Assembly: GCA_021234155.1 (NCBI GenBank)
Contig: JAJEKV010000011.1
Span: 15,105,255 to 15,169,254 of the forward strand
DNA: 64,000 nt
From: Isoetes taiwanensis
Taxonomy: Eukaryota; Streptophyta; Lycopodiopsida; Isoetales; Isoetaceae
Reading direction: 5' to 3'
Under the pieces are notes generated by a model. It was not told where the DNA came from. It worked only from the letters and a program-made list of their open reading frames with translations, and searched no databases. Within the stretch, counting starts at the first letter, position 1; the number at the start of each line of letters is the position of its first letter. The translations under genes and the position numbers were made by a program. Shown one piece after another: positions 39,155 through 64,000 of the stretch.

Positions 39155-42100
39155 TTTTTTTTTTTTTTTTTTTTTTTTTTAAGTAAGAGATGGTTTTATC
39201 ATTAATTATAAATCCTCAAGTACATAGCAAAGAGCATGCTTTTTTATATAGAAGCACGCCAAAAGATAGAAATTTATAACCAGTACAGAGCCTCATAGCA
39301 CAGTAGAACTATGACCCCTTGAATTATCAAAAGGACTATAAAGTGTATAGGATAACTAAATATAGAGTCCTGAATGTAAAAAGAGTCTCCCAAAATGTCC
39401 AACTGCTCCAGCAGATCATGAAGTGAATAACCAACTGTTGTCTCTGCTCTTGAATCCTGCCAACAGGTTAATAGTCCAAAGTAGTGAAACTAGATAAAAA
39501 ATTAGACAAGAGCACAAGTATGTTCAGGGAATAGCAAGGAGGATGGAATGTTTAGGAATCAGCAAAGAAAATGGAGTTAAAATAGGCATTGAAGGCATCA
39601 GTAATTCCAAAGGTGTATTGCTCAGCAGGCCAATTGTTGCTGTAGAACAGACGAAATTTATCGTTGTCCTCCAAAAGAATCAGAAAGGATCCTACATATC
39701 AGCAAGGAGTTTATGATTGTAATATATGGTCCTGTATCTTGTTAGCTGCCTCTCAGTGATAATGAGATTATTATTCACCAGAAATATCCACAAACAACTA
39801 CCTCCCTGCAAAAGATAGCAGCCCACAAAACTTCACTGTCTTTCTGATACCTTTTGTGCCTTGCTCTCATTAGAAAGGATTCCATTGAAGTTGCCAAATT
39901 GTTCTGCAGAACCGGATCCTTTGATGACTGACAGAATGGAGAGTGATCATCAAATTTATTTCTTCCAAATCCACGAAGGAATTCAAGATATTCTAGGATC
40001 ATCAGAAAAAAGAATGTTAGAATCTACTACATTCAAATTTGAAACAAATAACTCAAAATGCCCCTTATACTCTCCATAAGCATCCCATTTCCTATCATAG
40101 TTAGTACCATATCTTTTCTTATGAGCAGTAGCAAGAGTTTCAAAGTCAAATTAAAAATGAAGTTTGGTCCAAAAGATAGAAAGCCTCTTATTCCCATACA
40201 ATACACGATTTCTTGATTTCCATATATTCCAAAGAGCAATATAAGCAATAGTATTAACAAATTTATTATCAGATTGGAGAAAGGAAAGAAGATCTTGATT
40301 ATTGGCAATTCCAAATTTGCTAGCAAACCAAGTCCAAAAGCCATTAAGCTTACAAAAGAAGATATGACTCATTCTCTCATCATTGCCACATAACATAGGA
40401 CAATTTGCCATAATATTGGGATTTTTCCTAGATAAGGAATAAAGATTATTTAAACTGCCATTAACATTAAGCCAAATAAAATAAGAGATCTTTGGAGGAC
40501 AGTAGGAGTTCCAAACATTATGAAAAAGGGCCTTCAACTTATCAGAATTAATTGACCATTTTAACAAAGCTTTACTCTCAGCAGCATTAGAAGATAGAGC
40601 ATTGTACACATGCTTGACCTTATACTCCCCTTTACCATTTATAGACCAGTCACCTTTCCCAGGGTTTGGAGATAGATTAGAAAGAAAATTTTTGATATGA
40701 GGAAAAAAAAATTTATCAGAGGAAGTACCCGTAATGATATCTTTCAATCTAGTCCAAGAAATTATCCTGCCTCCTAAGAAAAGATCTCTAATATAAACCA
40801 GACCTGCATCATGCCATTTTTCATAAATCCTCGGGTGCTTAATTGCCAATACTGAAGAATTATGGTCAGCCAAAATAGGATTCCAGAAAATAGATAAATC
40901 ATTGTGAAGCTTATCTCTTGAGATAAAATGAAAGCTAGGAGAAATAGAATCGCAAGCCTTAATTAAATTTATCCATTAAAGGGGAAATATTAGAGGCTAG
41001 CTTCATATGAGTGAATGCAGAGTGAGGGAGCAGATGATGAATAGAAGGATGACCATAAGGATAACTATTGTTGATCCAGAATCTGATAAACTTGGAGGCA
41101 GGAGATTGACTCCCATGAATGGCCTTCCAAACAAACTTGCCTGCTAATGATTGAGCATGAAGGAATAAATTCTTACAGCCAAGGCCACCTAATTTCTTAG
41201 ATTTACAAATGGAGCCCCAATTGACAAGATGACTGCCTTTCCAGATTAAATTCCTAATGATTTTCTCCAATTCCAAATAAATAATTTTGGGAGCAACTAA
41301 AGCAGTGGAGAAATAAGCATGAGAGCTTGCAAGAACAGAATTTGCAATAATAGTTCTACCTGCAAGAGAGAGAGAAGTCCTATAATTATTCAGCTTCTTC
41401 TTTATTCTTGAAAGAATAGGATCCCAAAGACCTTTAATGCTATGATTCAGAGAAAGAGGCATTCCCAGCAATTTAATAGCTTGCTCAGGGGAGAGGATAT
41501 TAATGCCAGCCAGAAGTTGATGAGGAATGTCTCCAATGGTCAAGCTTTTATCAATATTAAATTGGATGCCTGAAGCAGCTAAAAATTGATTTTAGGATTT
41601 TGAGGAAGAAATCAATATTTGCCATGTCTACATCAAGGAAAGAGAAGGTGTCATCAGCATATTGAAGAATAGTAAGGCATTCATCAGATTCAGGAAGTTT
41701 AAACCCCTTAATTTGACCAAGATGCTGGTAATGAATAATGGCTTTAGTAAGCAACTCAGCTGCCACAACAAAAAGATAGGGAGCTAGAGGACAACCCTGT
41801 CTTACACCACAACAGAGAGGTAAGAAGCCGGAAGGAACACCATTAATAAGAACAACAGGATTGGATCTAGAATTAAGGCCAAAGATAAGATTTTTCAGCT
41901 TTAAAGGGAAGCCAAGTTTAGACATAGCAAAATCCAGGAAATCCCATCTAACTGAGTCGAAGGCACGCTTGAAATCCAGCTTGAGAAGAATACAACTTTG
42001 CTTAAAGATCTTATTCCAATGTAACCCTTCCATAGCAACAACATAATTATCAAGGATGTATCTATTTGGCAGAAAGACAGAATAATTTTAACTGATATTC

Positions 42101-42440
42101 TTTTGCAGAAAACCCTTAATCCTGGAGGCAATAATTTAGCACAAAGCTTGTAAGTGGTGTTTGTGGTAGATATAGGTCTCCAATCTTGAAATTTGGTAGG
42201 ATGATCAATTTTAGGAATCAAGGAAATAAAACCACTCGAGATGGAAGGATAGAGATGTTCAGCATTCCAGAAAGCATGCACAAGGGAAGTAAGATCATTT
42301 TGAAGAATATCCCAGAATTTGATATAAAACTCAGCAGGAAGGCCATCAGGGCTAGGAGATTTTCCCTTACTGAACGAGTTTAGAGTACTTAAGATTTCCT
42401 CTTGAGAAGGTAAAGCAATCACAGAGACATCCATACTATT
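39155..42440 (-). mobile_element. 5'-truncated AT-rich L1-type LINE
   Basis: On the minus strand the element runs from about 42440 down to a 26-nt poly(A) at 39155-39180. It lacks ORF1 and the endonuclease. The RT, thumb and zf-RVT regions are preserved in four overlapping frames, and a 3' UTR of nearly 1 kb follows. AAGGCAATT before the tail (about 39145) and AAAGCAATT after the other end (about 42442) may be the target duplication. Its AT-rich coding sequence is very different from the GC-rich LINE at 5.4-11.5 kb, so the two are separate families. Confidence 0.85.
40151..42434 (-). pseudogene. LINE ORF2 reverse transcriptase, frameshifted
   Basis: Minus-strand frames in order: 42434-41901 with SPSPDGLPAEFY and FQDWRPIS; 42033-41557 with LLKLDFKRAFDSVRW (motif A), CCGVRQGCPLAPYLF (motif B) and ILQYADDTF (motif C). 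Then 41543-40959 has LLGMPLSL, SLAGRTIIANSVL and KLGGLGCKNL (thumb). Finally 40873-40151 has PPKISYFIWL and CPMLCGNDERMSHIFFCKL (zf-RVT). At least three frame changes separate these pieces. Catalytic residues remain, so decay is fairly recent, but the endonuclease is missing and the copy cannot move by itself. Confidence 0.85.
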
Positions 42441-42450
42441 GAAAGCAATT

Positions 42451-43700
42451 CTTTATTGTTATTAATCTATCTGTTTAAACTTTGTATTCAAATAGAAGAT
42501 CCAAAACACCATTAACTAATGGGTTTAAGAACTTGAAAAATACCACTACAGCAACCTTTTAAACATCGACCTGTGCTCCTTTGTTCACCAACGGCATAAG
42601 CCGCTTCACATCAAACCTGCAGTTTCACAATGATCGATACTTTAATCTATGCATACAGCTTGATGTTTATTGATCATATCCGGCCTCTTAGGCGGACCGA
42701 CCTCCAATTGCTTTTGTCGCCTAGCCCAAGATTTGAGTTCCTTAGGCCACGATATTGCCTCTAAAAATAGAACCATTGAAAGATAAAATTCAATGGTTCA
42801 ATGTAAACTGAATGTTTAATAATAATAACTGATATCAAATATCCTATGATCATTTCAACACTCCTCCTTCATAAGATATTTCTCTTATCTTTTTGTAACT
42901 CCCAGCCTGTGTCTTAGCAAATTAAAACGTGGTTCTCTCAGAGCCTTTTTTTTTTTTTTTTTTTTTTTTTATAATGTTTATCAACTATCATGGTCTATTC
43001 TTATCTCCTTCCTGAAAGATGGATATGCCACCTATCTCATTTTGATATATGGATTTTCTTATAACGTCGAGTGCCTTGTCACTCAATGTTAAGACTAGAT
43101 AGGCAGAAATATATGGTTGCAACAGATTTGGCTGAAATAGCGGTTAATTAACGGATATCTTCTAAACCTCACTAATGTTGTTGTCTAGATCCAGTCTCTA
43201 TTCTATTCTATTCTTTTGAACCTATCTTTAGCTTTGTACCTTGGGAACCTTTTCATTAGGGTGGATTATTAATCTTACGCCTTAATCCCCTTCTCTTAAT
43301 TAGACTGATGTCTCCAGTTCTCTTATTGGAATTCATGTCTTTATGTCTGAGTTGTATTCTATACCCTAGTTGTATAGAGCTAAAAACCATTGGTAACCTT
43401 AGGAATATCCATGGCCACTAAGCTGATAATCAGACCGTCTAAATTGATAATCAAACTCTTGGGCTCTTACCGTTATTAGTAAAAGCTTAGCTATAACCTT
43501 CTCCTTATGCATAAACCATGAACTTATTAACCCTCTTATGATAAATATGCATTATTCTGCTTAGTAGTGACCACTTGCCAACTATTTCAACATGTAATTT
43601 TTATATTGACGCTTTGCTCCACCATGCTAACAGCCTATAGACATTGGGCGCCTGTATTAATCCATGTTGTGATAACATTGTTGACAACTTTAGGTTTTAG
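42451..43700. other. Non-coding stretch with a poly(T) tract
   Basis: T25 at 42946-42970 may mark the tail of another minus-strand retrocopy. No coding frame or target duplication could be tied to it. Confidence 0.35.
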
Positions 43701-49347: not shown

Positions 49348-50890
49348 TGTGACATTCCAGCACAGTATACGGTCCCAGGACGTATACTGTATTGCCCCGT
49401 CACGCGTACACGCCACCCCGACCGACGTGTACGCCGACGTGTAGCCAAGTGGGCCATACCCAAGTGTGCAATTAATGTGCACATTTACCAATGTACACAT
49501 TAATGTGGGCACACATTTTCATGTGGGCACATCTTGCCACCTAGCCATTAAAGGCAAGTGGGCCCATTCCCAATTATCCCACATGCCTAAAGGGGATAAT
49601 TGGAAACCCTAGCCAACCCCTTGTCTATTTAAGAAGGGAAACCCTAACTTGCCCATTTTTTCGTTTCTAGGGTTTTAGAGCTCTGTTTTGGCTGCCTCAA
49701 GAGCCAAAACCGCCTCCCAGACTCTGCCTGAGAGAATTGCACCATTAGTTTCCCTTGATTCGAGCGTTTCAGCAGGATGGTCGAACTCAGGTCAGGAGGA
49801 GCCACTCAAGGATCAGGTATTTGGCCAATTAAATAGTCTAAACCCTATTTCAGTCATAGAATCAGTAGGTTTAGCCTATTAAATTGCCCATAGCAGCCTT
49901 CTAGATCTCTAGATACCAGACTCTAACTAAAGAACCTAACTCTATGATATAGATTAGATATAGTTCTTCGGTGATGTATATGGATGATGTATCTCTATGA
50001 GCTCCTTGTATTGGGAAGGGGGGTAGAGACCTAAAGCTTTGTAGTGGATGCTCCTAGACTAGCCTCTCTAGCACACTATAGATTCGACCTGTGCACAAGA
50101 ACCACACCTGGTTGTGGATGAAGGGGCCAGACTGGCTAAGAAGGAGATTCATGTTCTGACTCTTGAACGATCCCTCTGGTGTGTAAGGCCTACCAGGGAT
50201 CATAGTGACTAGGTCTAATGGCTTACCACTGAGTGTGGGTAGGGCATGGACTCGACACCCGTGAAGTGGTGTACACTTTCCAATGGGTTCAGTCGAATAC
50301 AGGCAGTGGCCCTCTAGTCACCTTGAGTCAGCATGCAGATCTCTGGAGGGAGTGATCCCTTCCTGCCCCATCGAAACTGGGAGGATGAGACCCAGGAATA
50401 GCCCCTTTGGCTATGCATCCGGCGGGCTACAGTCAGGTCCCGACACTTTTCAGCCTACTCTGCAAAGTGTGCACAGAAGGGGCGGATGGAGTGGACAACC
50501 CTATGCCATGTTCTTATGCCAGCCAAATCCATTGCCATGAATTCTGTCTGTAATGAACTCTGGGGACCCAAGCCGTCAGTCATCCTTTCGAGTCTGAGCC
50601 TTGGGTAGGACCCCTATGTATGATGCTGATCATTGTTTATGCAGATGTTGATGCACCACCCTTCAAGGTGGATACGTGGTTATGTTTTATACTGACATGT
50701 ATGTTTACGCTTCCGCAGCTAGGTAGGCCCTGAGGGAGACGGGGTAAAATGACCCCTTCACTCTTCCCACTGGAACCCGTCACGGTTGCAGTGTCATGTG
50801 GAGGGCCGTGTATCGGCATGGAGCTGGTATGGGGGATGAACTCCTGTTTGTATACGGTGAGGGCACCGTATGCGAGTAGGGGACGTCACA
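49348..50890 (+). mobile_element. LTR of an LTR retrotransposon (1543 bp, 5' LTR or solo LTR with primer site)
   Basis: The sequence starts TGTGACATTCC and ends GGACGTCACA, so its termini TGTGAC/GTCACA are inverted repeats with the standard TG...CA ends. A TATTTAAG-type promoter lies near 49625. The primer binding site follows two bases after the LTR. No second LTR was found in the window, and no gag-pol follows directly. Confidence 0.8.
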
Positions 50891-50891
50891 G

Positions 50892-50903
50892 TGGTATCAG
50901 AGC
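50892..50903 (+). other. Primer binding site (initiator-Met tRNA)
   Basis: TGGTATCAGAGC is complementary to the 3' end of initiator methionine tRNA, the usual primer of plant copia and many gypsy elements. Confidence 0.88.
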
Positions 50904-51419
50904 AATGTTCTTGGTGACCAAGAGCAAAGCACTGACCATGCTCCCAATAGCACTAACTTGATAGGATCCTTAAACCTCGAGAAATGGGAAAATTTTTTTC
51001 TCATTTTTGTAGTTTATGCTAAGCTAAGTAACAGTTAGAATGAATGAAAAACATAAAAAGACTAAAGGGTGCAAAATCGCTACTGGGTAGCAGAAATCAC
51101 CGTCCGGACGCCGCTTACAAGTGCTTAAAATCGGTGTGTTTTAAACACGACGTGCGTGATTGAAGTATTGACATCTAGGGTGCGCGCCCGTCAAATGACA
51201 GGCTGAGAGAATCATGAACATGTTTGGTGCCGGAAACATGAATGCCTGTGGCCCGCCATATTCCTGGATGGCGGGCTAACCCATCTTGAATTCAAGCAAA
51301 ATGGAGGGACTAATTGTTTCCAAGAATTGCCTGAACCGAAATTCAACAATTTGCCCTCACCAATTTTGCAACACACAGAAATCCGGGATAGATGAAACCC
51401 AATTCCTCTCCCCGTTCAA
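50904..51419. other. Possible leader of the LTR element and unassigned DNA
   Basis: No Gag-like frame follows the primer site. The sequence loses any retrotransposon character by about 51000. Confidence 0.35.
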
Positions 51420-54110
51420 TTTACAGAGCCATTGATGCAGCAAGGAAGAGAGATCAGAGGCAGAGATTGTATGCAAAGAAGGTAGCAATGAAGAAGAATT
51501 CCCCTTCTAAAGATTCGCCTTCAAAGAAGAATAAGAAATTGAGACCGAAAGACCGTTGAGAATAAGAGAAATTTCAGGAGAAATTTATGAAGTATTCAAC
51601 CAAATTAGTACAAATGTTGATGACAATGACAAAGGCCGCATCATTGACAGTCTTCTTTGGAGGGCAAGGGATTTACCAATTTCTTCTATAAAGAAATCTA
51701 AGCAGGTTACTATGGCCGAGCAAAATGGTGAAGAATTTAGAAGGAAACAATGCAAGAACATAAGTTTGAGAGGAATCATGACATGCTTCGTGCAAGGAAG
51801 TCCACCCTGATAATGGCAGCAGCAGGTACAAATGGTGTCAAGCCATTGAATCAAGCAGAAGTGGCCAGATTGCTCAGCATCCCCAGAAAAACAATTTCAA
51901 ATGCTTTTCAAAGAAGGGTGCAAGCTAACAAAGGGGAAGGACCTTGGTCAATGTTCAGGAGGAGGAAGCGGATGGATAGCATGTTAGATCACAATAGAGA
52001 AGTCATTTATCAAGTTCGGGCCGAGAAAATACAAGAGTTTCTCCATACAAGAAAGACGTGAGGAAGTATGTATCGAGAGACGAGGAATAAAGATGGAACA
52101 TCCAATTCACCTTCTTGAAGTCGACCAAGTAAGTATTCATCCTATATTGTAGGGTTCATTATATGTAGCATTTATTTGGCATTCACACGATTTCCCTAGC
52201 TTGCAATTCTACCTCGTGTTTAGAGAGGAGAATCCTCATATCAAAATTGCATTGCGACTTTTGAGAGGTTGAAACCGAGTTTTGTAAGGAGGATGCGTGA
52301 GAGGCATACATGCCGTTGCATTTACCACTTGAAATTTGAATACATCATGCAAGGATTGAAATGGCCTGAGAAAATCGGGTGGAGTTCATGACAATTGCAA
52401 CCGCCATTTGTGAGATTTGTGGCCCGCCCGTAATGTGCAGCCAAGGAGCATACAATCAAGTGTACCAAAGATTTATGGAGACAAGTGGTCTCGCAAAGGT
52501 GATGATGAGGAGTGGTTTGATCATAACCGCTTGATGTTGGCGTGTAAAAAATGTGGGTTGGATAGAATTAGAAAATGTCCACAGGGAAATGGATGGCACG
52601 GGTTCAAGACTAGTTACTTGGAAGACATTTGAAAAGCAACCCGTGGACCAGACGAGAGAAATTGAGGATCCAAGAAAGGCTTTGAGGTACAAACCCGTCT
52701 TGAGATTAGTACGAATGAGAGAAGTCCCAAAGAATTTCAAGAGGAAGTGAAGAAGGTAATATCAGATTTTGTTCTACACAATTACATAGCACATTGGCAG
52801 GCCAATCGGTTTAAAAAGCGGTGTGTGTCATCATTTCGGAAGATACAATTGTATCTCGTTATTGACTTTGCGAAAATTACAAAGATCAAGATCCGAATGA
52901 GCCCCGGTCAATGCAGCCGCATACGCATAAGTTTCTATACTTGTTCACATAACATATAGGCATGACAAAAGTGCTGATATTCCTGTTCCTCGCGCATTTA
53001 AGAAGACCGGCCCAAAGAAGAGAAAAAGAACGTAAGTTGGAGCAGATCGGGAATAGACTCAACAATGGTAGGAAGATCATAAAAGAGACTCACTTTTACA
53101 TTTCGATGATAAAGTGCATGACTCATTATTTGTGGAACACTTTACTACAAAAGCATGTTGCATGGCTTAAGGAACGAGAAATAGAGTATGAGAAGCATTG
53201 GTTTTGGAGTGATGGCTGCTCATCACAATTCAAGTCGAAAACCTTTTTTTTTCTTAGGCGGTACTTCACAATCAATGACAAGGAAATAGTGTGGAACTAC
53301 TTTGCCACTGCTCATGGTAAAGGTGAACATGATGGTGCAGTGTTGTTATCAAAAGGTCGCTAAGTAAGGAACAACTCAAACCCAATGGTGTGCAACCGAG
53401 GCATGCTAAAGATATTGTAAAATTTACGTGTACATATTTCAGCCAGCTATCACCGATGAAACGGATGAGATCAAAAGATAATTTTGGGAAATTGAACCTC
53501 TTTGTTGTGGCAAACATGGAAGAATATGAGATTGAAACACTCAAAGGCACAAAGAAGATTCAATCAGATCGGACACTGCCGGCCAGGACTAGACCAAACA
53601 GGCTTGCTCATAGATGCCCGTCATGTTTCTCGCCGCGTTTACATGGATCATAATTGGGACTCCTGCATCAATACGGGTAGATTTGGAAAGTGGGAGGTAA
53701 CCGACTTAAAACCGAGGAGTTGAGAAGAAAAAGGAGACTCTTGAACAAGCCAATGAATGGATCAGTAATTTGGTAGAGGTAGGTGACAATTTTGCGGTGA
53801 ATCTTTGAGGTAGACAATTCAGAGGGTGTGGACTTCTACATCCTCAAGTGCCTGAGAACCCAAATGCACACTTGAAGATTCATACAAAGATGGATGGGGG
53901 CAAAAATTTGGAGTGCATGAGGTTATCTTAAGTGGATTGTATTATCAATTCTTGGGTAATTTCAAGTATATGTTGCTCACTAAACAACCCGACGCCTCAG
54001 GTACTGCGCCCATGTGGTAAGATATCCTAAAGTTGATATGGAAAAAATAGAAGGCACTGACATGTACAGAATTTCACAGAGAGACCCATGAAAAATTATG
54101 GCCAGTCTCC
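51420..54110 (+). pseudogene. Decayed DDE-like transposase gene
   Basis: Frames on the + strand give, in order, a lysine-rich start (about 51450) and a helix-turn-helix-like block EVARLLSIPRKTISNAFQRR (about 51860). Then come a DFAENY-like segment (about 52862, across a frameshift), FWSDGCSSQFKSKTFFFL (about 53204), WNYFATAHGKGEHDGA (about 53292) and a C-terminal part with EGVDFYILKCL and FKYMLL (53820-53970). The combination of DFAENY, SDGC-x-QFK and FATAHGKG is one I associate with a transposon-derived protein family found in many eukaryotes. The conserved Asp residues suggest an RNase H-like DDE fold. I cannot give the superfamily name. More than five frameshifts or stops show it is dead. 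Confidence 0.45.
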
Positions 54111-54601
54111 CAATAACAATGTAATTGTTTGACACTTAACGAAATTGATGTTATTCTTTTCAAGTGATTTGTTGTTCCAGCACCTAAGCATGTAAGCACA
54201 TATTTTTATATATATTAACAATAGTGAGGATGCACAAGGGTGGTGGCATGGACACGCATACCGAAATGAAGATTGAATTGTTGTTTATAAGAATGTAGAT
54301 TTGTGACATTGGAATAAGGTTCAATTATTTATTTTGGTACCATCACTATCCCAACATTCTTGGCAAAATTATATTGTCAAGGCATTTCCTCGATGTGACA
54401 TGTGTCAATTCGACTGGCCATACGAAATATTTAAGCCTGGTTACGAATTAATTGTTCTGGCGCGTGTGAGGTTTATCGTACACTGACGCGCCTAAGCACA
54501 TGACTTAAGCAGTAGGCGCCCACAAGCTCACGCTCCGCCAATTCCTCCGCCCGCCAATTCCTCTGCACTCCGCACTCCGCACTCCGCATTCCGCATTCGG
54601 C

Positions 54602-55117
54602 ATGAAGCGAGGAAGATCAGAGGAGCCGGAGGTCACCTCGAAGAGGCGCTTACTAAGCGTCGAAGAGGTGTTCCCTCCACTCTTCCCGCCTCTGCCGGAA
54701 GTTCTTGCTGCCTCCCACTCTGCTGCCCACTCTGCTGCCTCCTCTCCTGCCCACTCTACTGCCTCCCAGTTTGAGGAGGAGTCTGATTCCGATTCCTCAT
54801 CTTCTGATTCCTATGAGGAATCAGAAAATGAGGAATCGGAAATGAATTCGCAGGAATATATCACCGCTGTGATGCAGGGATGGATAGGCGAATCAGAAGA
54901 AGAGGACGAGTCCGAGGAAGAAGAGGAAGAGGAAGAGGAAGAGGAAGAGGAAGAGGAAGAGGAAGAGGAAGAGGAAGACGAGGAAGACTTGGAGGAGTTC
55001 AGGGCGGTCCTTAAAGGTACATGCATTTTCATTTGTTTTCTGTTTTCAATTTTTCGTTTGTTTAATCTTCGTTTGTTTAATTTTTCGTTTGTTTCATTTG
55101 TTGCAGATGGAGAATGA
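54602..55117 (+). CDS. Small acidic, serine-rich protein gene with one intron
   Basis: Exon 1 is 54602-55016 and exon 2 is 55107-55117, separated by a T-rich 90-nt GT-AG intron. The spliced product is about 141 aa. It has a basic start (MKRGRSEEPEVTSKRRLL), a Ser/Ala repeat, a DSDSSSSDSYEE segment and an uninterrupted run of about 25 glutamates, then EDLEEFRAVLKDGE. The intron is a multiple of three and has no in-frame stop. Intron retention would therefore insert 30 hydrophobic residues (FICFLFSIF...) and still end at the same stop. Such polyacidic proteins often bind histones or other basic partners, which is only an inference here. Directly upstream are five short ACTCCGC/ATTCCGC repeats (54567-54600). 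Confidence 0.5.
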   Translation: MKRGRSEEPEVTSKRRLLSVEEVFPPLFPPLPEVLAASHSAAHSAASSPAHSTASQFEEESDSDSSSSDSYEESENEESEMNSQEYITAVMQGWIGESEEEDESEEEEEEEEEEEEEEEEEEEEEDEEDLEEFRAVLKGTCIFICFLFSIFRLFNLRLFNFSFVSFVADGE

Positions 55118-55910
55118 AGATGCAAAAGCAGATGAAGATGAAGAAGACAAACCCCCTTTGAAGAAGACACCCCCTTTGAAGAAGACACTGGCCTCAGGGC
55201 CGAAATTTTGTAAAAATTTTGTATATTTCTCTTTTGTGTACACTGGCCTAAGGGCCTTTTTTTTATAAAAAATCTTGTTTACCATCAAACTTTTTTGTAA
55301 CTTTGTTTCTGTCTTTGTTTCATTGAGATCTCTTCTTCTTCATCTATGAAATGTTATTTTTGTCTATCTATCAAATTTATGAAGTTCAATTCTGTCAATG
55401 CGGTCCATTCAGATTCTCGCTTGAATGTAACAAAGTGCTCTAGCTCTTTCATTAGTTTCAAACACTAAGCATTTTAATCGGTTTCGGCCGATTGCCGGTG
55501 AGTAAGCAATTGGAACACCTGAAACACTTATGCAATAAACAGCTACCTTTAAACAGGTTATATGGCTTAACAATAAGCATTTGCACCTTAACCGCATGAC
55601 AGTAAGCACATGATGACATTAAGCAACTACATAAAAGTATCCTCATCATTTGCATGACAATAAGCGTATCGCCATTAAGACTCATACCGGACTAGCACTT
55701 GCGGGCAATTTTTTTTAAAGCACTTGATAAGTTTTAAGCATCCCTTTCGGTCAAGATTGAAGTATATATAAACAATATAACAAAACTTATAGACAAGTCT
55801 GCATTGAACTACATAAACAATATAGCAAAAACATTCTTAAATTAAGATAAAGATGGTACATGAAAAGTGTAGGATTCCTTGGCCTAAATAAATGACAAAC
55901 AAGCCAATAA
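55118..55910. other. Intergenic DNA between convergent genes
   Basis: An imperfect repeat, AAGAAGACACCCCCTTTG, lies at 55142-55185. A loosely repeated ATGACA(G/T)TAAGCA word occurs at about 55570-55680. No gene supported. Confidence 0.4.
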
Positions 55911-56690
55911 TCATGGAGAATGACAAGCGTCATCACCATAAACCTTCTCCAATTCCTCCTTCACAAACCTGCAGAACTGCAACTGTTTTCCAGAAAGTCT
56001 TTCCAAGCATAGCTTCATAATCTTTCTATCTGCCTTAGGCCAAGGCTTGTATCTATGTGTATTCTTCACCAGTAACTTCATTTCTTCCTCAGTCTTGGCC
56101 TGCAGTATTTCTTCTATCTTTGGGGTGAGTACTGGTAGCACTTCATCATGGACATCCATCTTGAATCACGGTACCGCAGAAATTTCCAGGGACTGCTAAG
56201 GTAAGACTTGTATAATGAATCATCAAGAAGCAAAGTCTTACCCGAGAATCTTGGGTATGACTCATATATTTTCCCAAGTGGCTTCATCATGACTGGACAG
56301 CCAGGTTTGTTAGGGTGGTGAAAACTGGTCTGCACACATTTTTCCCCGTCCCCCATACAAATTGAAATCATCCCTCAAATCGGACATAGTACTTGCAAAA
56401 CATCTTCCACATTGGAGAGTTGCATTGATGACCATATACCAACACAACATTCAGAACAAAGTCTTCAAGAAGAACACCGCTACGGTGTCGAATATCACTT
56501 TCTTTACGCTGGTGTGTATGTCATTGTCAATCCTGCTTCCAAGCGTATGTGTTCATTTGCACCAAATGTTTTTACCAACACACCATTTAAATCCAAGACA
56601 ATGAGTTTATCTTTGGCTGGCAAATCAATATTTAGTATGTTGGAACATCCTGAATACCTACACAACAGGAATTACTACATGAATAAATAG
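55911..56690 (-). pseudogene. FCP1/NIF-type (HAD family) phosphatase domain, frameshifted
   Basis: On the minus strand the catalytic block KLIVLDLNGVLVKTFGA (about 56625-56575) matches motif I of plant FCP1-homology phosphatases, with the nucleophile Asp in DLNG. A second block VGIWSS (about 56435) fits motif II. MKPLGKIYESYPRF followed by KTLLLDDSLYKSY (about 56280-56205) fits motif III with its double Asp. Frames change between motif I and II, after motif II, and again at about 56160. The last 82 codons (56159-55911) form a basic, helical tail. Enzymes of this family remove phosphate from Ser/Thr, as in RNA polymerase II CTD phosphatases. As it stands it is broken, unless unseen introns account for the shifts. 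Confidence 0.55.
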
Positions 56691-56898
56691 ATGAAGATGA
56701 AAATGAAAAATGGGTTGAATGTGGAAACCTTTCTGTATCAACAGCAGGATTCTCTGACCTAACAGAATCAACTGGTAATCCTACAGTGAATGCAACAAAA
56801 GAAAATTAATAATATTCAATGTTTTAAGCAACACTAAGTTGTGGCCTTCTTGCCCAACAATGCCCATACCCCCTTTCCAGGGTTAGTAATGGCAGCAA

Positions 56899-57324
56899 TC
56901 ACTTGTTGAAGATCGTGCTCACCAAAACTTGAGGGCCTGATTCTGCATTTTCTTCAGAACACACTTCGATATGTGTGGTGTCATGATTGAGACTGCTTCC
57001 TGCATCTTTTGCATAGCTACTTCTTGTTCTCTTTCTTGTAGCCTGAACAACTTCTTTGCTATCCTCCAGCTTACCCCTCTTTGTTCTTCTCTCCCTTTCC
57101 TTACGCAAATATACACCCAAGTTGCCCTCATCCGATGGAATTACTCCCTCAACTTCCTTGGGTGCTTCATTATTATGTACAATGTACAATCGGTTCATTG
57201 TTTTTTTCCAATCCCAGTCTTTGTGTTTACAACCGGTCTTTGTGTTTACAGCTTCTTCTATAGCTTCTTGGACAGCTTCTTGGACTGGTGGTGGTGGTTC
57301 TGCTGTTGCATTCAAATCAGTCAC
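56899..57324 (-). CDS. Charged 141-aa ORF, part of the minus-strand locus
   Basis: Opens MTDLNATAEPPPPVQEAVQE, then has WDWKKTMNRLY and a long basic segment (LRKERERRTKRGKLED...ATRKRTRSS). It ends with an acidic part. No domain was recognised. It sits between the RING-like ORF and the phosphatase on the same strand, so it may be the central exon of a larger gene. Confidence 0.35.
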   Translation of the reverse strand: MTDLNATAEPPPPVQEAVQEAIEEAVNTKTGCKHKDWDWKKTMNRLYIVHNNEAPKEVEGVIPSDEGNLGVYLRKERERRTKRGKLEDSKEVVQATRKRTRSSYAKDAGSSLNHDTTHIEVCSEENAESGPQVLVSTIFNK

Positions 57325-57449
57325 AATTGATCAGACCTATAGGACTTTGCAGGTGTTGTGCATCTTCAAATGGCACCATTGTCCTTCTTTGAACCCTCAA
57401 CGGTGAGACCTCAATTGCAGGACGGATTAACACATCCTTTTTTGGTGTA

Positions 57450-57866
57450 CTATTTGAAGCAATGGCCAAAACCTAGCTCGTCAAATACACCCTCTGGCAC
57501 ATTTCCAGGGCAACCATGAATACATTGTCCTCCTCTCAACAATGAACAACAAGCTATATGATACTCATGTTGGCAATTCAGTGCTAAACTTAACCTGTAA
57601 GCTTTACTGAATTCCAGACCACATGCCGAACATGTATAAAATGGATCTTCCACTAGCAACTTATCTCGTATAATAGTAGAGATGCTAAATGTTGCAGGAG
57701 TATCCATTTTCAGCTTCCACAAATTGTTTATGTAGAAATGCAGAAGTCTCTGTTCTTCTTCGAGAACTTTTAACTCCTCCTCAAGTTTGAGTTTACGTTT
57801 GACCTGCTCATTAACAGATGTAGGGTTCATTGCTTTTTGTACCTTGTTCCTGTGCCAAGTTTCCAT
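57450..57866 (-). CDS. Coiled-coil plus RING-like zinc-binding ORF (138 aa)
   Basis: Residues ~15-50 form a charged helix (QVKRKLKLEEELKVLEEEQR). Residues ~80-125 contain ordered Cys/His pairs: CSAC, then LNCQHEYHIACC, then CIHGCPG. This is the spacing of a cross-brace or RING-like zinc module. A GFG.CF tail closes the ORF. I associate a similar C-x-H-x-YH-x-x-C module with uncharacterised seed-free-plant proteins that occur in many copies. It could act in ubiquitin transfer or protein binding. It is probably one exon of the locus running from 58690 to 55911. Confidence 0.4.
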   Translation of the reverse strand: METWHRNKVQKAMNPTSVNEQVKRKLKLEEELKVLEEEQRLLHFYINNLWKLKMDTPATFSISTIIRDKLLVEDPFYTCSACGLEFSKAYRLSLALNCQHEYHIACCSLLRGGQCIHGCPGNVPEGVFDELGFGHCFK

Positions 57867-57879
57867 TTGGACATGATCT

Positions 57880-58690
57880 GCTCCAAATCTTTAATTTACG
57901 CCTCCAACTCACATGTTGGATTAAGCTTGAACTCCTCCCCGCTTTTGTAGCCAAATCATTTGTGGCCTTGTCTTAAACTGTTTTCAGCCTCTTCCAACAT
58001 CATTTTCCTGTAATTCGGAGGCCTTCTCATTGCCTTTCAGCTCACTTCCCTCTTTGCTTCCGTGATTCTTTGTGATAAGTAAAACTGATTTTCCGATCTC
58101 CTCTTGCATTCTCTAAGGTTTTATGTTCTCATCACATGCACCGATCTCATTTGATCCAGCTCCCACCTTTGGCTTTGCCTTCATTTCAGTTTTTCCTAAC
58201 ATGTGCTACAACATCGCCTCTGTTTTACTTGTCTATTGTTGTGGTATCTTTGACATTGCACAAAGCAAATGCAGCCCATTTACTTTGTGTTCCTCGGGTG
58301 CAAGTATTGATCTAGTGCAATTTTCAAAACGCATAAAAGCAAGGGCGGTTGCTTTCTTACTTCTTTGTTGTGACAATTCTTGTAGATTTTTCTATTGAGT
58401 GTTTCCAACTTCTCTTGAAGATGCTCCTTTGCACAGTGGCATTTTATCTTTCCCTTGTTCAACTTCTTTGTCCAAACAGAATCCCAATCTCGATCCGTGA
58501 CATTATTTTCCAACCAAGCTTCTTCCTCATGGGGCTTCACCCCCGAATTGCACAGACCTCTGATGCTGTGAAAATCATCCGCGCTCCATGCCTCCATCAT
58601 CAACAGTGAAACACTGATCTGAATTTTCGCGCCCAGGGGAAAAGGAGGGAGAAGGGCGTGACGGGCTTCGACGTCCGCGAGTTTCAGCAC
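57880..58690 (-). pseudogene. N-terminal part of the minus-strand locus
   Basis: The frame 58690-58280 has WSADDFHSIRGLCNSG and RDWDSVWTKKLNKGKIKCHC followed by a charged helix. Further pieces such as QRITEAKREVS and MLEEAENSLRQGHK lie at about 58080-57960 in changing frames. The region reads as broken coiled coil. Family unknown. Its 5' end faces the palindrome pair at 58781-59048. Confidence 0.35.
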
Positions 58691-58780
58691 TTAAAGTGCT
58701 TAAACACTTTGCCAAAAGTTGTACCCCACTAGCGATTTTACACCCTAAAATTGGTGAGCCAACCTTCAAAAAGTAGGGTG

Positions 58781-58847
58781 GTCTCACACGTCGCGCCAGG
58801 ACAGATAATGAGAATCTCATTTTCGGGCTGGGCGCAACGTGTGAGAC
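58781..58847. promoter_or_regulatory. Palindrome 1 (67 nt), divergent promoter region
   Basis: GTCTCACACGTCGCGCC at the left pairs with GGGCGCAACGTGTGAGAC at the right around an ATGAGAATCTCAT core. The arms contain ACGTG/CACGT cores recognised by plant bZIP and bHLH factors. It lies between the divergent starts of the minus-strand locus and the H3-like gene. Confidence 0.6.
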
Positions 58848-58982
58848 ATTCAGCTTGAAAAACACCAAAAAGTCATAAATTACGCAAAAATAACTTGATA
58901 ATTCTAATTTTGAGCTAAGAAATAGTAAAATTGGCATATTATACGCTTAAAAAGTATAAAATTTAATAGCGGGACCCACCAT

Positions 58983-59048
58983 GTCTCACACGTCGCGCCA
59001 GGACAGAAAATGAACTTTTCATTATCTGGCCTGCATAGCGTGTGAGAC
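58983..59048. promoter_or_regulatory. Palindrome 2 (66 nt)
   Basis: Same family as palindrome 1, 202 bp downstream, with a more degraded right arm (GCATAGCGTGTGAGAC). It is 78 bp upstream of the TATA box at 59126. Confidence 0.6.
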
Positions 59049-59125
59049 CATGCTTAAATTTAGGTGTTCTAGATGTTTTAGGTAACCCAAAAAGGTAGTT
59101 TGGAATTTGACCTAAAATCGACCCC

Positions 59126-59133
59126 TATAAATA
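59126..59133 (+). promoter_or_regulatory. TATA box of the H3-like gene
   Basis: CCCCTATAAATAG, a consensus plant TATA box, with a pyrimidine/A-rich start region about 30 bp downstream. Confidence 0.6.
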
Positions 59134-59319
59134 GATCTAGACCCCCATTTCCGCGTCCCTCCTTAGGAAAATCGCTCTCACGCCAAGGCGATCTTTCTCG
59201 CATGTACGGATTGAAGAACCGTTTAACATAAAAACGTCGCATCGCTAGGGAAGCTCCCGGCCGAGGCGACCGTCCCAGCCGCCAAATGACCCCTCGCCTC
59301 TCATTCGAGGATACTCTAA

Positions 59320-60038
59320 GAGCGCCTTTTCCGGCAAGGCGAATCTTCTTCCAGCGAGGAGGCAGGATCGGACCGGAGCGGCCAGACGGAGGTCATAGGC
59401 GAGGAGCGGCCGGACATTATGCAGCAGATTCTTGAAGAGATGGCCGAAGAGGAGAGGAGGAACAGGGAGGAACGGGAGCAGATAGGGCAGCCGACCGTCG
59501 AGGAGCAACTCGAGGCTTGGCCCCGCCTGCAGGAGGAGGAAGAGAGAGAGGAGCAAATGGCACCGAAGCTTAGCCCTGCTGAAGAAGCAGACCTCGCGGC
59601 CTTCATCAGCAAGTATGAAGCCAAGGAGCGCCGCCCGAGAGGAGGACGAAGAGCCGAAGATCGACCTAACCACAAATGCATGGGCGGGCAAGAAGAGAAG
59701 GCCAAAGCCATTAAATGGCAAGAGAAAAGTTGTGAAGGTTGGTAAGCGGCGGCGGGTCCTGGCATCAACGAGCCATCAGCGAAAGCAAACCCCCGCCTTC
59801 TACCGACGACTCGGACGAAGATTACGTCCCCAACACTGGGGAGGCAAGCTCTTCAAAACCCCCGGCCGTGGAGAAGGAAGTACCGAGAGGCAAAGACCGA
59901 AAGGTGAAGAATGGCCGCAAAATAAGCCCCCACCTTTTCCGCGTGGGATAGAGTTAAAGCCCCGCCGACTCCAACGGAGCGTGACGGATAGACCCTGGCC
60001 AAGGTCTATCAAAGAAGATTAAGGAGCACAACGCCTAT
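59320..60038 (+). pseudogene. N-terminal extension of the H3-like protein, frameshifted
   Basis: Three consecutive frames read as one low-complexity protein. The first (about 59323-59640) is very acidic (EEMAEEERRNREEREQ; PKLSPAEEADLAAFISKYEA). The second (about 59640-59750) is basic (AWAGKKRRPKPLNGKRK). The third (about 59770-59925) has STDDSDEDYVPNTGEASSS. The reading then joins the intact H3-like frame at about 59983. No adequate intron explains the shifts. They are therefore real mutations or consensus errors in a protein of about 350 aa. Confidence 0.45.
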
Positions 60039-60476
60039 ATGGCGGCGTGGGAGGCGCATAACGCTTACTACCAGGAGCACAGGGTGAGAACGATTGAAGG
60101 CGGACGCCCAACAAAAAGCCAGACCCTGAAGCCACCGCCACCCAAGCCCAAGCCTCCCAAAGCACCAGGAAAGAAGCGGACCAAGAGCAAGCAGAAGGAG
60201 CAGAGGGCCCTCAAGGAAATCCGGCACTTCCAGCGAAGTTACAGACTCTTGATCCCCCGGGCACCATTTCAACGCTTGGTCCGAGAAGTCATGCAGGAGT
60301 ACAACAGGGACATGCGCGTGACCGATGAAATGCTGCTGTGCTTACAGGAGGCAGCAGAGGCGAAAATAGTGCCGCATTTTGAGGATTCGACGGCCTGCAC
60401 AGTTCACGCGAAGAGGGTCATGCTTATGAGACAGGATATGTTTTTGGCCAGACACATCAAGGGAGAACGCCCTTGA
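60039..60476 (+). CDS. Divergent histone H3-fold protein
   Basis: 145 codons from ATG 60039 to TGA 60474-60476; the frame is open from about 59983. Residues ~55-145 align along the whole H3 core. RALKEIRHFQRSYRLLI matches the alphaN helix and PFQRLVREV alpha1. LQEAAEA and HFEDSTACTVHAKRV match alpha2, and QDMFLARHIKGERP alpha3 with the normal H3 end. The usual H3 tail (ARTKQTARKS) is absent. In its place stands a proline/lysine linker (PPPPKPKPPKAPGKKRTK). LLIPRAPF resembles centromeric H3 (CENH3). However, the loop-1 length is that of canonical H3, without the CENH3 insertion. The fold would pair with H4. It is preceded by a TATA box and two palindromes. It may be a novel H3 variant or a histone-fold protein carried by a mobile element. 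Confidence 0.75.
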   Translation: MAAWEAHNAYYQEHRVRTIEGGRPTKSQTLKPPPPKPKPPKAPGKKRTKSKQKEQRALKEIRHFQRSYRLLIPRAPFQRLVREVMQEYNRDMRVTDEMLLCLQEAAEAKIVPHFEDSTACTVHAKRVMLMRQDMFLARHIKGERP

Positions 60477-60619: not shown

Positions 60620-60686
60620 GTCTCACACGTCGCGCCAGGACAGAAAATGAAATTCTCATTTTCGGGCTGGGCGCAATGTGTGAGAC
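60620..60686. promoter_or_regulatory. Palindrome 3 (67 nt)
   Basis: GTCTCACACGTCGCGCC...GGGCGCAATGTGTGAGAC around a GAAATTCTCATTTTC core, nearly the same as palindrome 1. It lies 144 bp after the H3-like stop codon. Confidence 0.6.
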
Positions 60687-60818: not shown

Positions 60819-60885
60819 GTCTCACACGTCGCGCCAGGACAGAAAATAAACTTTTCATTATCGGTCTGGGCGCAACGTGTGAGAC
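60819..60885. promoter_or_regulatory. Palindrome 4 (67 nt)
   Basis: Begins 199 bp after the start of palindrome 3, repeating the spacing of the first pair. Its core, ACTTTTCATTATC, matches palindrome 2 rather than palindrome 3. It ends 181 bp upstream of the TATA box at 61066. Confidence 0.6.
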
Positions 60886-61065
60886 CTCGCACCATTTTCT
60901 TCACAAGTTGATCCCCAAGTTGTTGCAATAGGTTCATTAGTCCATCCTAGCATGCTCAAACCTTAGAAGTAGTCTTCAAACTCTCAATTGCACCCTTTAA
61001 TAGATTAGAATCACCCAATCCCAGTAAATTCTAGATCATCCAAAAATTAGGGTTTTCCCCTTTTC

Positions 61066-61073
61066 TATAAATA
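61066..61073 (+). promoter_or_regulatory. TATA box of the gene at 61188
   Basis: TTCTATAAATAGG, the same TATAAATAG core as in the H3-like gene, 115 bp upstream of the ATG. Confidence 0.6.
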
Positions 61074-61187
61074 GGTCCTCCACTTCTCAATTAGCACCTT
61101 ACAAGTTTGCTCTCCACTGCTTAGGCGATCTTCCAGCTCCCTGAGGCGCTTCTGCATCCGTTTGATACTCTCTTCTTCGCTAGATCA

Positions 61188-61805
61188 ATGGCCACTGCGG
61201 ACTTCAGGCGATGGTACAACGCCAGTGCCCATGCGGCCGAGGCGGATGTCAATGACATCTTCCGAGTCTTTGGGAGAGAAATAGATGTGCAAGCCACGCT
61301 GAATGCAACCCCAGCATATAGACAAGTCTTAGCAGAGTTCCAAGCTAGGGTAGGACCCTCCCTTGTCCAGGTTCCCCCTTGCATAGGCTATTTTGTTCCC
61401 CGCCCATCCCTTCAAGCAGCCTTGGGTGATGTCCCCAACATCGTCAAGTACCTAACTAACAAGGCGCAGAGGCTACCAGACTACATGGTCCTGACAGCTA
61501 ACAGGACCAAGTATTTTTCCTACACCGCCGCCTTAGCTATTTTCCTATCCCACCGTGCCGAAAACCCTTTGGGGGCAACCTCTATCCCTCCCATGGAGGT
61601 GGACCCCATAGCAGTCCAAGCCGAAGAGCAGATGCTTTTGCAAGCCGGCAAAGAGCAAGAAGGAAGGGAAGAAGAAGAGGAGCCTGACGACGAAGAGTAC
61701 ACCGAGCTAGACTCGGAAGAGGAACGGCAACAAAGCGAGCAACAGAGCTGGTCAACTTCGAGCAGAGCCGGCAGACCATCAGAGTTGCTCCCCCACTTGG
61801 GCTAG
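61188..61805 (+). CDS. Uncharacterised protein with helical domain and acidic tail (205 codons, then frameshift)
   Basis: Starts MATADFRRWYNASAHAAEAD. The first 135 residues look globular and mostly helical (DIFRVFGREIDVQATLNA, IVKYLTNKAQRLPDYMVL, YTAALAIFLSHRAE). Residues ~160-190 are strongly acidic (GREEEEEPDDEEYTELDSEEE). I do not recognise a family. It shares the promoter arrangement (palindrome pair and TATA) with the H3-like gene and is on the same strand, so co-expression is likely. The frame is lost at about 61750-61805, although protein-like reading continues in other frames. Confidence 0.5.
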   Translation: MATADFRRWYNASAHAAEADVNDIFRVFGREIDVQATLNATPAYRQVLAEFQARVGPSLVQVPPCIGYFVPRPSLQAALGDVPNIVKYLTNKAQRLPDYMVLTANRTKYFSYTAALAIFLSHRAENPLGATSIPPMEVDPIAVQAEEQMLLQAGKEQEGREEEEEPDDEEYTELDSEEERQQSEQQSWSTSSRAGRPSELLPHLG

Positions 61806-62710
61806 GCATCACAAGCCTAGCCCCTATCATCATCGATGGAGAGGAGTATCTACTCCTCAGCGACATCCGAACCTCCCCAATGCGGGGAGAGGGAGCTCCG
61901 ATTGGATGAATCGCTCCACCAATCTGGCGAGACCGACATGGGCGACTTCATCGTCCGAGGAGTCTCAGACTTCCCGCTTCAAGTCAGGGAAGTCGACACC
62001 TACTGGGGCGACTTAGACATCCGTGCATACGTTAAAGATAAGGCAGGTTATGGAGACTGGAGACCTGCCATCGGAAGAAGAGTTCCTCGCCATTCAGGAA
62101 CGGATGGGGATCAGAGGCAAGACCACCAGCATCCTGATGCCGAGTCCCTCGACACCACCTCAAGCAGGAGGAGCAGGAATCGACCTCAGGCGAGTCGACT
62201 CCACAATCGAAGACTACCGGGAGCTCACCGAGATAGAGGTCGACGAATATGCCGGGCGGCATAGAGCAGGAGGCCAAACAAGTGGGGAATCATCCACGAC
62301 GCACAACGACAGGTCGCTGAGGTACTACCTGCCACTGCTGCTAGACGGGAGAATAGCGGTGGTACACCGCAAATTCAGCCCCAGGGGTGAGGAAGGAGTG
62401 TTCATGCTGATCGCACTCCAGGCTTCGGCAGACATGCTCGAATAGCGGCAAATGTCGACTACGCTGTCCTAGTCAAGAGAGCAATGGCACTCGACCTCTT
62501 CGACTTCGCCATACCTCATCGACGTCAGGCGAGATTAGCGGTGGCCGCGGCCCTCACATCCGATCAAGAGAGTGGAAGACTTGGCGAGAGCCTTGCAGAG
62601 GCGGCTCGTCGCCAAGCTGTCTTCGTGAACTTGGGTCATTCCTAAGGGAACGCCCAAGTTAAGAAGTTCCTAGAGGACAACCCATCTTACCGGCGATTTC
62701 AAGATTAGTT
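61806..62710 (+). pseudogene. Frameshifted continuation of the same protein
   Basis: Protein-like pieces continue: LAPIIIDGEEYLLLSDIRTS (about 61815), DMGDFIVRGVSDFPLQVREV (about 61938) and LPSEEEFLAIQERMGIRG (about 62064). Then come RYYLPLLLDGRIAVVHRKFSP (about 62320) and VDYAVLVKRAMALDLFDFAIP (about 62451), ending KKFLEDNPSYRRFQD before TAG at about 62706. At least four indels and one in-frame stop (62643-62645) interrupt it. The undamaged protein would be near 500 aa. No known domain. Confidence 0.4.
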
Positions 62711-62879
62711 AGACTCTTGATCCCGGAGACTTTTTGTACTAAAATATTATATTCCTTTTGCACTTCAAATGTTTTGTTGATGTATTTTGTGTCCCCAACT
62801 ATACCAACAAACATAAATAATGCAAGAGAACAAGATAAAACTAACTATATAGCCATGAACTACTTGTGTATGCAGCTAG

Positions 62880-64000
62880 AGGCCTAGGCTCAGGGGAACG
62901 ACAACGCCGAGACCATATGGAAGAACAGAGTCCGCCCAGGCCACCTCCGGCAAGGAACCTGTTCGAGGAATTTGGACCCATGACCCCAGAAGAGGAAATA
63001 TCACGGATGAGGGCCGGACCTTGAGCGGATAAAGGCTTTGTTAGCCGCATTGCAAGGGGAGCTGGTCGGTGGGCAACGCCGCTCGCCCCTCAAGCATCAG
63101 CTCGGAAGACAGGAAGGGACAAGAAGAGGAGCAAGAGAAGGAGGTCCTCCAGCTCGGAATCCTCCGACTCAAGCTCCGATTCGGACTCCGACTCCGAGAT
63201 AGAGGAAGAACAGGCCCAGGACCGAACAGATGGAAGGCAGAGGAACACGGCAGATGCAAGGCAGAGGGACGCCATAAATGGACGACAAAGGGACACCAGA
63301 GCCTCTGACTACCAGAAGAAAGTAGATTCTCGCGACCGGCAATGTATGGAAGGCCCGAATCGAACAGTTCGGGGAGAACAGTCGATTAGAAGCGGAGGCA
63401 TGGCTGGATCTAAAATGAGTGAGTACGGCAATGCTTATGGTATGAAGGATAAAGACAAAGGCAGAGTGGCAACAGCCAACTTGAAAGGAGCCGCACGAAT
63501 TTGGTGGAAGGGTTATGCAAAGGCACATGGCTTAAGCAGGGATGCTTGTAAGTTCAGAAAGTTTGCTAAAGCCTTCAAGCGTCATTACATTCCCAAGGGA
63601 GCACAAGTCCAGCATGATGCAACAGTTCTACAGGTTGCAACATGGAAACAAATCAGTCCAGAAATATACAGAGGAATTCATGAGGCTAAGACTTTATGTG
63701 CCAAAGTTGGGCGAAAAACATGCAGTAGAGAGCTACATTGAGGGCCTGAATGAGGAGATCCGCAAGCTTGTAAGGGCAATAAATCCTAAGACAATATCAG
63801 AAGCAGAGTCCAAGGCAATAAGCTTGCAAGGAACGGGACCTTAGAATAGCGGGCAGAGGCAGCAGCATTACCAGGATAAAGGCAAGGCAACAGGGAGTTA
63901 TAACCCTAGGGCAGCAAGTCCGGGTCCAGCTAGAGCCCCATATGGTGGCAACCAGGGGAAACAGCGCCTTCAAGGACAAGCAGGAGGGGTCAAACTACTC
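62880..64000 (+). pseudogene. Ty3/gypsy Gag, frameshifted and cut by the window end
   Basis: An N-terminal part with PPRPPPARNLFEEFGP and an arginine/serine-aspartate tract (63115-63210, SSSESSDSSSDSDSDSE) precedes the capsid region. YGMKDKDKGRVATANLKGAA and RIWWKGYAKAHGL (about 63440-63540), then NKSVQKYTEEFMRLRLYVP (about 63647-63703) and YIEGLNEEIRKLVRAI, fit the Retrotrans_gag domain of gypsy elements. The frame changes at about 63600 and near 63840. A Gln/Gly-rich stretch leads toward where a zinc knuckle and protease would be expected, beyond the window. Confidence 0.7.

Follow-up and report, generated by a model that had tools for sequence, protein, structure and literature searches.

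A histone H3 gene carried by a Ty3/Gypsy chromovirus lineage in the genome of Isoetes taiwanensis

The open reading frame at positions 60039-60476 (plus strand) of a 64,000-nucleotide stretch of Isoetes taiwanensis contig JAJEKV010000011.1 (hereafter the window) belongs to an LTR retrotransposon, in which it forms the 3' end of a now decayed gene; it is not a host H3 variant. With high confidence we identify the surrounding sequence as a decayed copy of a Ty3/Gypsy chromovirus, belonging to a lineage that bears two additional genes between the 5' LTR and gag: a histone H3 gene of its own and, after it, gene B. The evidence consists of the anatomy of the element, the gene order in four families (alpha, the window type, and beta, gamma and delta), and selection on the H3 core and on the alpha tail.

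The H3 open reading frame

The frame encodes 145 residues, the C-terminal part of which is a histone H3 core ending in GERP. It matches the Pfam Histone profile with E=3.8e-26, and residues 15-144 match the best H3 chain in the PDB with E=6.3e-27. An earlier note, made from the sequence letters only, had recognized this core, and the motifs that it named (PFQRLVRE, LQEAAEA, FED and HAKRV) are all present. It was also right that loop 1 has the canonical H3 length and that LLIPRAPF resembles plant CENH3, as judged against CENH3 sequences entered by hand. The acidic and basic coding sequence it saw upstream of 60039 is likewise there, as open pieces in several other frames. Since these upstream frames are broken, the ATG at 60039 is internal. 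Alignment to a second copy, C1079 (L034:198-683 corresponds to window 58749-59229), puts the start of the H3-fusion gene near 59228, and in L033, L034 and L040 the ORF runs from MARTKQ over roughly 410-420 codons. The window therefore holds a decayed 5' part, tail plus linker, at 59228..60038 (plus strand, delimited by the C1079 alignment), with broken frames and an unrecognizable tail, and a still-open 3' part at 60039..60476 (plus strand) with the end of the linker, the H3 core and the stop after GERP.

Anatomy of the window copy

The copy is an old, decayed Ty3/Gypsy chromovirus member, with its parts in the same order as in C1079 but split by nested insertions. Its 5' LTR lies at 49348..49950 (plus strand, both ends approximate) and matches the C1079 3' LTR in two pieces, with 90% and 79% identity. 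The first part of the leader between LTR and H3 gene follows at 49951..51065 (plus strand; 73-78% identity to the C1079 leader). At this point a foreign 7.7-kb element, which is no part of the retrotransposon, is nested in the leader (51066..58748): the C1079 leader continues uninterrupted across the point, and the insert carries terminal inverted repeats (TIRs) of 22 bp (51066-51087 and 58725-58746, 91% alike). The earlier note had spoken of transposase remnants next to the ORF. The sequence upstream of the H3 gene lies in this separate nested TIR element, which has several ORFs on both strands; the one ORF scanned for a transposase (52953-53360) gave no Pfam match.

Downstream of the H3 gene are gene B at 61188..62700 (plus strand, frames broken, 3' end approximate; 92% identity to C1079 gene B in two pieces) and gag at 62848..64000 (plus strand, frames broken, located by sequence matches; Retrotrans_gag E=0.0012), where the element runs past the window end. 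The retrotransposon adjacency reported earlier is thus real, except that the ORF lies not merely beside the element but inside it, between 5' LTR and gag. Beyond the window the same copy continues with reverse transcriptase (L044:2-1465), RNase H (L044:7444-7998, 1.3e-30), integrase (L088:59-1516) and a chromodomain that resumes at L088:4613-4822 (Chromo 1.9e-10). We read the gaps between reverse transcriptase and RNase H and between integrase and chromodomain as two further insertions. The sequence read stops short of the 3' LTR, so that this copy is represented by its 5' LTR only.

Two palindromes precede the H3 gene (58781..58847 and 58983..59049; DNA hairpin z -7.4 and -7.2) and two precede gene B (60620..60686 and 60819..60885; z -7.7 and -7.5), so that each gene is preceded by a pair spaced at about 200 bp. 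A TATA-like CTATAAATAG, picked out by eye, also stands before each gene (59125..59134 and 61065..61074, plus strand). When the upstream regions of the two genes are aligned, the palindromes are the best-aligned parts. We rejected the idea that they are the LTRs of some small element enclosing the H3 ORF, because only the palindromes align well and the layout recurs in other alpha loci. In the aligned and generally conserved spacer between H3 gene and gene B of 30 alpha loci the palindromes show no extra conservation against their surroundings, and a scan of six stretches from beta, gamma and delta found none of them. A 17-bp palindrome arm is matched exactly in three IMG/VR viral contigs (L001-L003). 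A search of viral contigs for relatives of P0001 yielded 74 pattern stretches, none of which was confirmed.

The window holds other repeats as well. Head-to-tail copies at 22901-27124 and 29501-33729 are 98.9% identical over 4.2 kb; this repeat may reach further left, and it contains a weak reverse transcriptase match below the curated cut-off (RVT_1 8.3e-5 at 27108-29174). LINE-like remnants are seen at 6605-7216 (endonuclease/exonuclease domain, 9.6e-14) and, on the minus strand, at 40154-42452 (RVT_1 9.9e-17, zf-RVT 2.7e-10).

The C1079 copy and the class of the element

The C1079 copy (L043, L034 and L042) has a direct repeat at either end (84% between the two over 684 columns). Its parts come in the order LTR, leader, H3-fusion ORF, gene B, gag, protease-reverse transcriptase, integrase, chromodomain and LTR. 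Pfam matches are gag 1.6e-17, RVT_1 2.4e-38, H2C2 1.2e-20, rve 2.8e-9 and Chromo 1.8e-10. The domain scan found no RNase H in this copy, which is therefore not intact; the domain is supplied by the window copy. Taken together, the two copies display what defines a Ty3/Gypsy chromovirus: an LTR pair around the coding region (in C1079), gag followed by protease, reverse transcriptase, RNase H (from the window copy) and integrase, and a chromodomain at the integrase C-terminus in both. The carrier is thus an LTR retrotransposon and not a hAT DNA transposon with TIRs, the vehicle of H3 in fungi.

Group I chromodomains, the type that reads methylated H3K9, are described in PMC3350952 by three cage aromatics, Y24, W45 and Y48. 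Inspected by eye, alpha and delta keep the W only, and the other two cage positions are non-aromatic. Judged by sequence, the element chromodomain is of the group II pattern given in that paper, so reading of methylated H3K9 should not be assumed.

Copy number, gene B and four families

We searched the Isoetes taiwanensis genome (1,658,258,908 bases in 1110 contigs) with P0001, which returned 10,623 loose first-look candidates. Scoring was confined to the best 150, each of which proved significant at 83-100% identity; many of them lie within open frames of 400-491 codons. The Pfam Histone profile returned 8705 loose first-look candidates, of which the best 150 were scored and all were significant. 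Fifteen of these 150 span profile positions 2-122 at the top score and look like canonical host H3; the eight that were fetched (L004-L011) are canonical host H3 genes. No host CENH3 was identified among the best 150 of 6955 candidates, and introns may conceal it.

The H3 gene and gene B travel together. Among the best 30 of the 150 scored P0001 places, the window copy included, gene B lies downstream in 30/30 alpha loci and palindrome arms are present in 30/30. When loci are picked by gene B instead (best 20 of 150 scored, from 7711 candidates), an H3 core is found upstream in 19/20; eight of the 20 overlap the first set, and 11 of the 12 new loci have the core. A lineage-specific host H3 variant, as the earlier note had suggested, is consequently rejected: the copies read adjoin gene B and gag, gene B follows in every H3-picked alpha locus, and the C1079 copy sits between LTRs. 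Its other suggestion, a chromatin protein captured by a mobile element, was right but too modest, the gene being a conserved one of a chromovirus lineage.

A further 20 loci picked by Pfam score (L045-L064) all carry near-canonical H3 cores; their N-termini and cores sort them into 13 beta, 3 gamma and 4 delta loci. In one copy of each, the 8 kb downstream contain gene B and then gag on the same strand (3/3), and in the delta copy integrase as well. Gene B of alpha and of the other three families is homologous (hhalign 97%, E 1e-10; L065:105-1600, L066:166-1515 and L067:123-1634) and measures about 506 codons in L079. It had no Pfam match in the window, C1079 or beta, gamma and delta scans. 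It stands directly after the H3 gene in all four families and may work in connection with the H3 protein. Integrase fragments of alpha and delta are 82% identical over 128 residues. This likeness, together with the homology of gene B, points to a probable single entry of the H3/gene B module into the lineage, which the H3 tree cannot confirm. The ORFs of beta, gamma and delta have other sequences than ARTKQTARK at the N-terminus. These N-terminal domains align with one another, and in the three scanned (L052, L056 and L059) Pfam matched nothing beyond the histone part.

Selection on the H3 core

For the core analysis 57 sequences were parsed (8 host, 29 alpha, 13 beta, 3 gamma and 4 delta; L028 remained unparsed). 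From alpha-N to the end, the core counts 91 residues without indels in all 57, although the parser, which misses frame-broken copies, permitted other lengths. Core pN/pS is 0.078 in alpha, 0.064 in beta, 0.027 in gamma and 0.010 in delta, with 0.021 for host H3. Copies of one family differ widely at synonymous sites (median pS 0.36-0.55), and between host and element such differences are saturated (median pS 0.91-0.93). The core loci are top scorers, those of alpha by similarity to P0001, which biases these ratios low, and for that reason the test was repeated on copies picked by gene B. The 20 gene-B-picked loci were reduced to 10 new copies (eight overlaps, one without a core and one with a core under 60 residues removed), and these gave a core pN/pS of 0.16 (bootstrap 0.03-0.33), one decayed copy included.

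Elsewhere in alpha, the YVIDP stretch preceding the core is constrained too (pN/pS 0.097, 28/30 copies). Looser regions are the acidic linker (0.356, 19/30), gene B (0.336, 24/30) and the first 42 residues taken as a whole (0.366, 15/30 copies).

Selection on the alpha tail

The longer alpha ORFs open with MARTKQTARKPRR or a close variant, which is the exact H3 sequence A1-K9, ARTKQTARK. A long linker separates this tail from the core, so the two are not directly joined as in H3, and a recognizable tail is missing in half of the 30 alpha loci. In a first test, the 15/30 loci picked by the tail itself (12 of them exact) gave ratios of 0.079 at codons 2-10 and of 0.557 and 0.537 in the two ten-codon blocks that follow; selection by the tail makes this result partly circular. 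In the retest, copies were therefore chosen by residues 20-59, which finds 18/30 loci. All 18, frame-broken copies included, yield 0.63 for codons 2-10 against 0.99 for codons 11-19. Leaving out the five whose match stops before the tail side in frame, 13 in-frame copies remain, 11 with an exact tail. Here codons 2-10 have a pS of 0.499 and a pN of 0.030, a ratio of 0.061 (bootstrap 0-0.135), whereas codons 11-19 reach 0.634 (bootstrap 0.40-0.98); the two do not overlap in 1000 resamples.

The earlier statement that the H3 tail is absent is thus true of the broken window copy only, because the in-frame relatives start with MARTKQTARK and the tail codons are under constraint. Much the same applies to the pseudogene that the earlier note had allowed for, in the form of scattered decayed copies. 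The window copy is decayed, and a simple host-H3 pseudogene describes it alone; for the family we reject it on the pN/pS of core and tail, purifying selection acting on the core, and on the open frames of 400-491 codons in which many of the scored matches are found.

Residues and origin of the element H3

C110, H113, R116, D123 and L126, which we take to form the H3-H3' interface, are invariant in 57/57 parsed cores. Among the presumed DNA contacts, which include R63, K79 and K122, nearly all are kept in beta, gamma and delta; alpha shows changes of, among others, R63 to P, K79 to N (or T) and K122 to Q or S. Representatives of alpha are 54-57% identical to host H3 over the core, those of beta 84-86%, and those of gamma and delta 88%. 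Structure predictions had low confidence both for P0001 alone (pLDDT 52) and for a beta ORF with 15 rows (pLDDT 53, confident only at about residues 150-220). The PDB fold search gave no usable match (best E 0.35).

The alpha core is 48-52% identical to plant CENH3, and it shares EIRHFQ, LLIP, R-x-T-x-E-x-L and LMR-x-D with Arabidopsis CENH3; all H3 and CENH3 reference sequences, for comparisons and trees alike, were entered by hand. Of the two marks of a CENH3, a longer loop 1 and a divergent tail, neither is seen: the loop has H3 length in all parsed cores and the alpha tail is H3-like. Trees with H3 and CENH3, which the earlier note had proposed, were built with 22 and with 16 element cores out of the 49 parsed. 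The larger places beta, gamma and delta together beside canonical H3 (support 86/84); alpha groups with plant CENH3 at weak support (40/0 in the larger tree and 71/88 in the smaller). A single clade of all element H3s has a p-AU of 0.049 when four CENH3 rows are included, 0.116 when two are, and 0.339 when CENH3 is left out.

Possible roles of the element H3

LTR retrotransposons are silenced largely via marks on the H3 tail. We propose that the element would express its H3-fusion protein, that this protein would pair with host H4 and enter nucleosomes, and that it would there alter the chromatin on the element's own copies or at integration sites, with the effect of resisting silencing or steering integration. 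The product is probably an element-encoded nucleosomal H3. The whole chain, from expression through H4 pairing and nucleosome entry to chromatin altered against silencing or for integration, is a serious possibility that we would place somewhat short of even. Host proteins that bind H3 tails would modify or read the tail that alpha retains; beta, gamma and delta would use a different N-terminal domain in its stead. Put more broadly, and still more tentatively, the retrotransposon lineage may make part of its own chromatin: an H3 variant in nucleosomes on copies or targets, with a tail or N-terminal domain recruiting anti-silencing or integration-guiding factors.

The constrained tail of alpha could also be taken to point to a non-nucleosomal decoy, which would weaken silencing by titrating the host's H3 methyltransferases, readers or chaperones with its H3-like tails or H4-binding surface. 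Residues A1-K9 are constrained like the core there, and the core itself has diverged to 54-57% of host H3. However, beta, gamma and delta lack this tail at the N-terminus yet have a near-canonical core, which fits nucleosome use better, and a decoy seems to us unlikely. The motifs that alpha has in common with Arabidopsis CENH3 and its grouping with plant CENH3 at 40/0 and 71/88 would suit a CENH3 mimic, derived from or converging on centromeric H3 and placing the element or its protein at centromeres. This we judge improbable: loop 1 has H3 length, the protein ends in GERP, the core is closer to host H3 (54-57% identical) than to plant CENH3 (48-52%), the trees support the grouping weakly, the best 150 of 6955 candidates yielded no identifiable host CENH3, and the beta-gamma-delta group stands beside canonical H3 (86/84).

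A role in the virion is harder still to credit. A basic histone fold binds DNA, and the H3 gene is located just upstream of gag, and the fold might compact the element's cDNA inside virus-like particles or within the pre-integration complex; a conserved H3 tail would not be expected for simple packing. Least credible is passenger capture, in which H3 is multiplied as dead cargo like the fungal hAT cases and its conservation reflects recent amplification. Transposon-captured H3 as mostly dead cargo is documented in PMC6710886, and many copies here are broken, the window's among them. Nonetheless, a median pS of 0.36-0.55 within families comes with very low pN, four diverged families hold the gene at the same place, and the tail codons are conserved while neighbouring codons drift. 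We disfavour this explanation, and an H3 used in nucleosomes is the reading that we carry forward.

Comparison with known systems and significance

In LTRs, gag, protease, reverse transcriptase, RNase H, integrase and a C-terminal group II chromodomain, the element resembles the plant Ty3/Gypsy chromoviruses of PMC3350952 and PMC2864245; it differs in having two more genes between LTR and gag (the H3 fusion and gene B), which are unreported in the available parts of these papers. The H3 captured by hAT elements in Dothideomycete fungi is likewise multiplied to high copy by a mobile element. According to PMC6710886, the extra copies were killed by RIP in six Mycosphaerellaceae genomes, and 23/26 appear functional in Pyrenophora. 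Compared with that DNA transposon, the Isoetes carrier is an LTR retrotransposon, its H3 is fused to new N-terminal sequence, and purifying selection is long-term and spans four families. Another LTR lineage that gained and kept a host-like gene is that of orchid Gypsy elements, in which the added ORF encodes a different protein, an m6A RNA demethylase (PMC9289625). The same paper reports a screen of LTR retrotransposons in 121 angiosperm genomes with 15 extra domains, nine of which are named in its section 12 with no histone among these nine; non-seed plants lie outside that screen. With the canonical H3 of its host (L004-L011) the element H3 shares the 91-residue core without indels and, in alpha, also the tail A1-K9, whereas it differs in a long insertion or new N-terminal domain and in a diverged core.

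Among the openly licensed papers that our searches listed we found no report of a retrotransposon-encoded histone H3 or of a selected fused H3, an absence that is not proof. The word 'histone' is absent from the main text of the I. taiwanensis genome paper (PMC8566536).

For work on this genome, histone and CENH3 counts in Isoetes taiwanensis can be swamped by element copies. More generally, a high-copy retrotransposon lineage carries an H3 of which, in alpha, nine tail residues are strongly selected while the adjoining codons drift. This makes it directly testable whether a mobile element manipulates the chromatin it depends on by supplying a histone.
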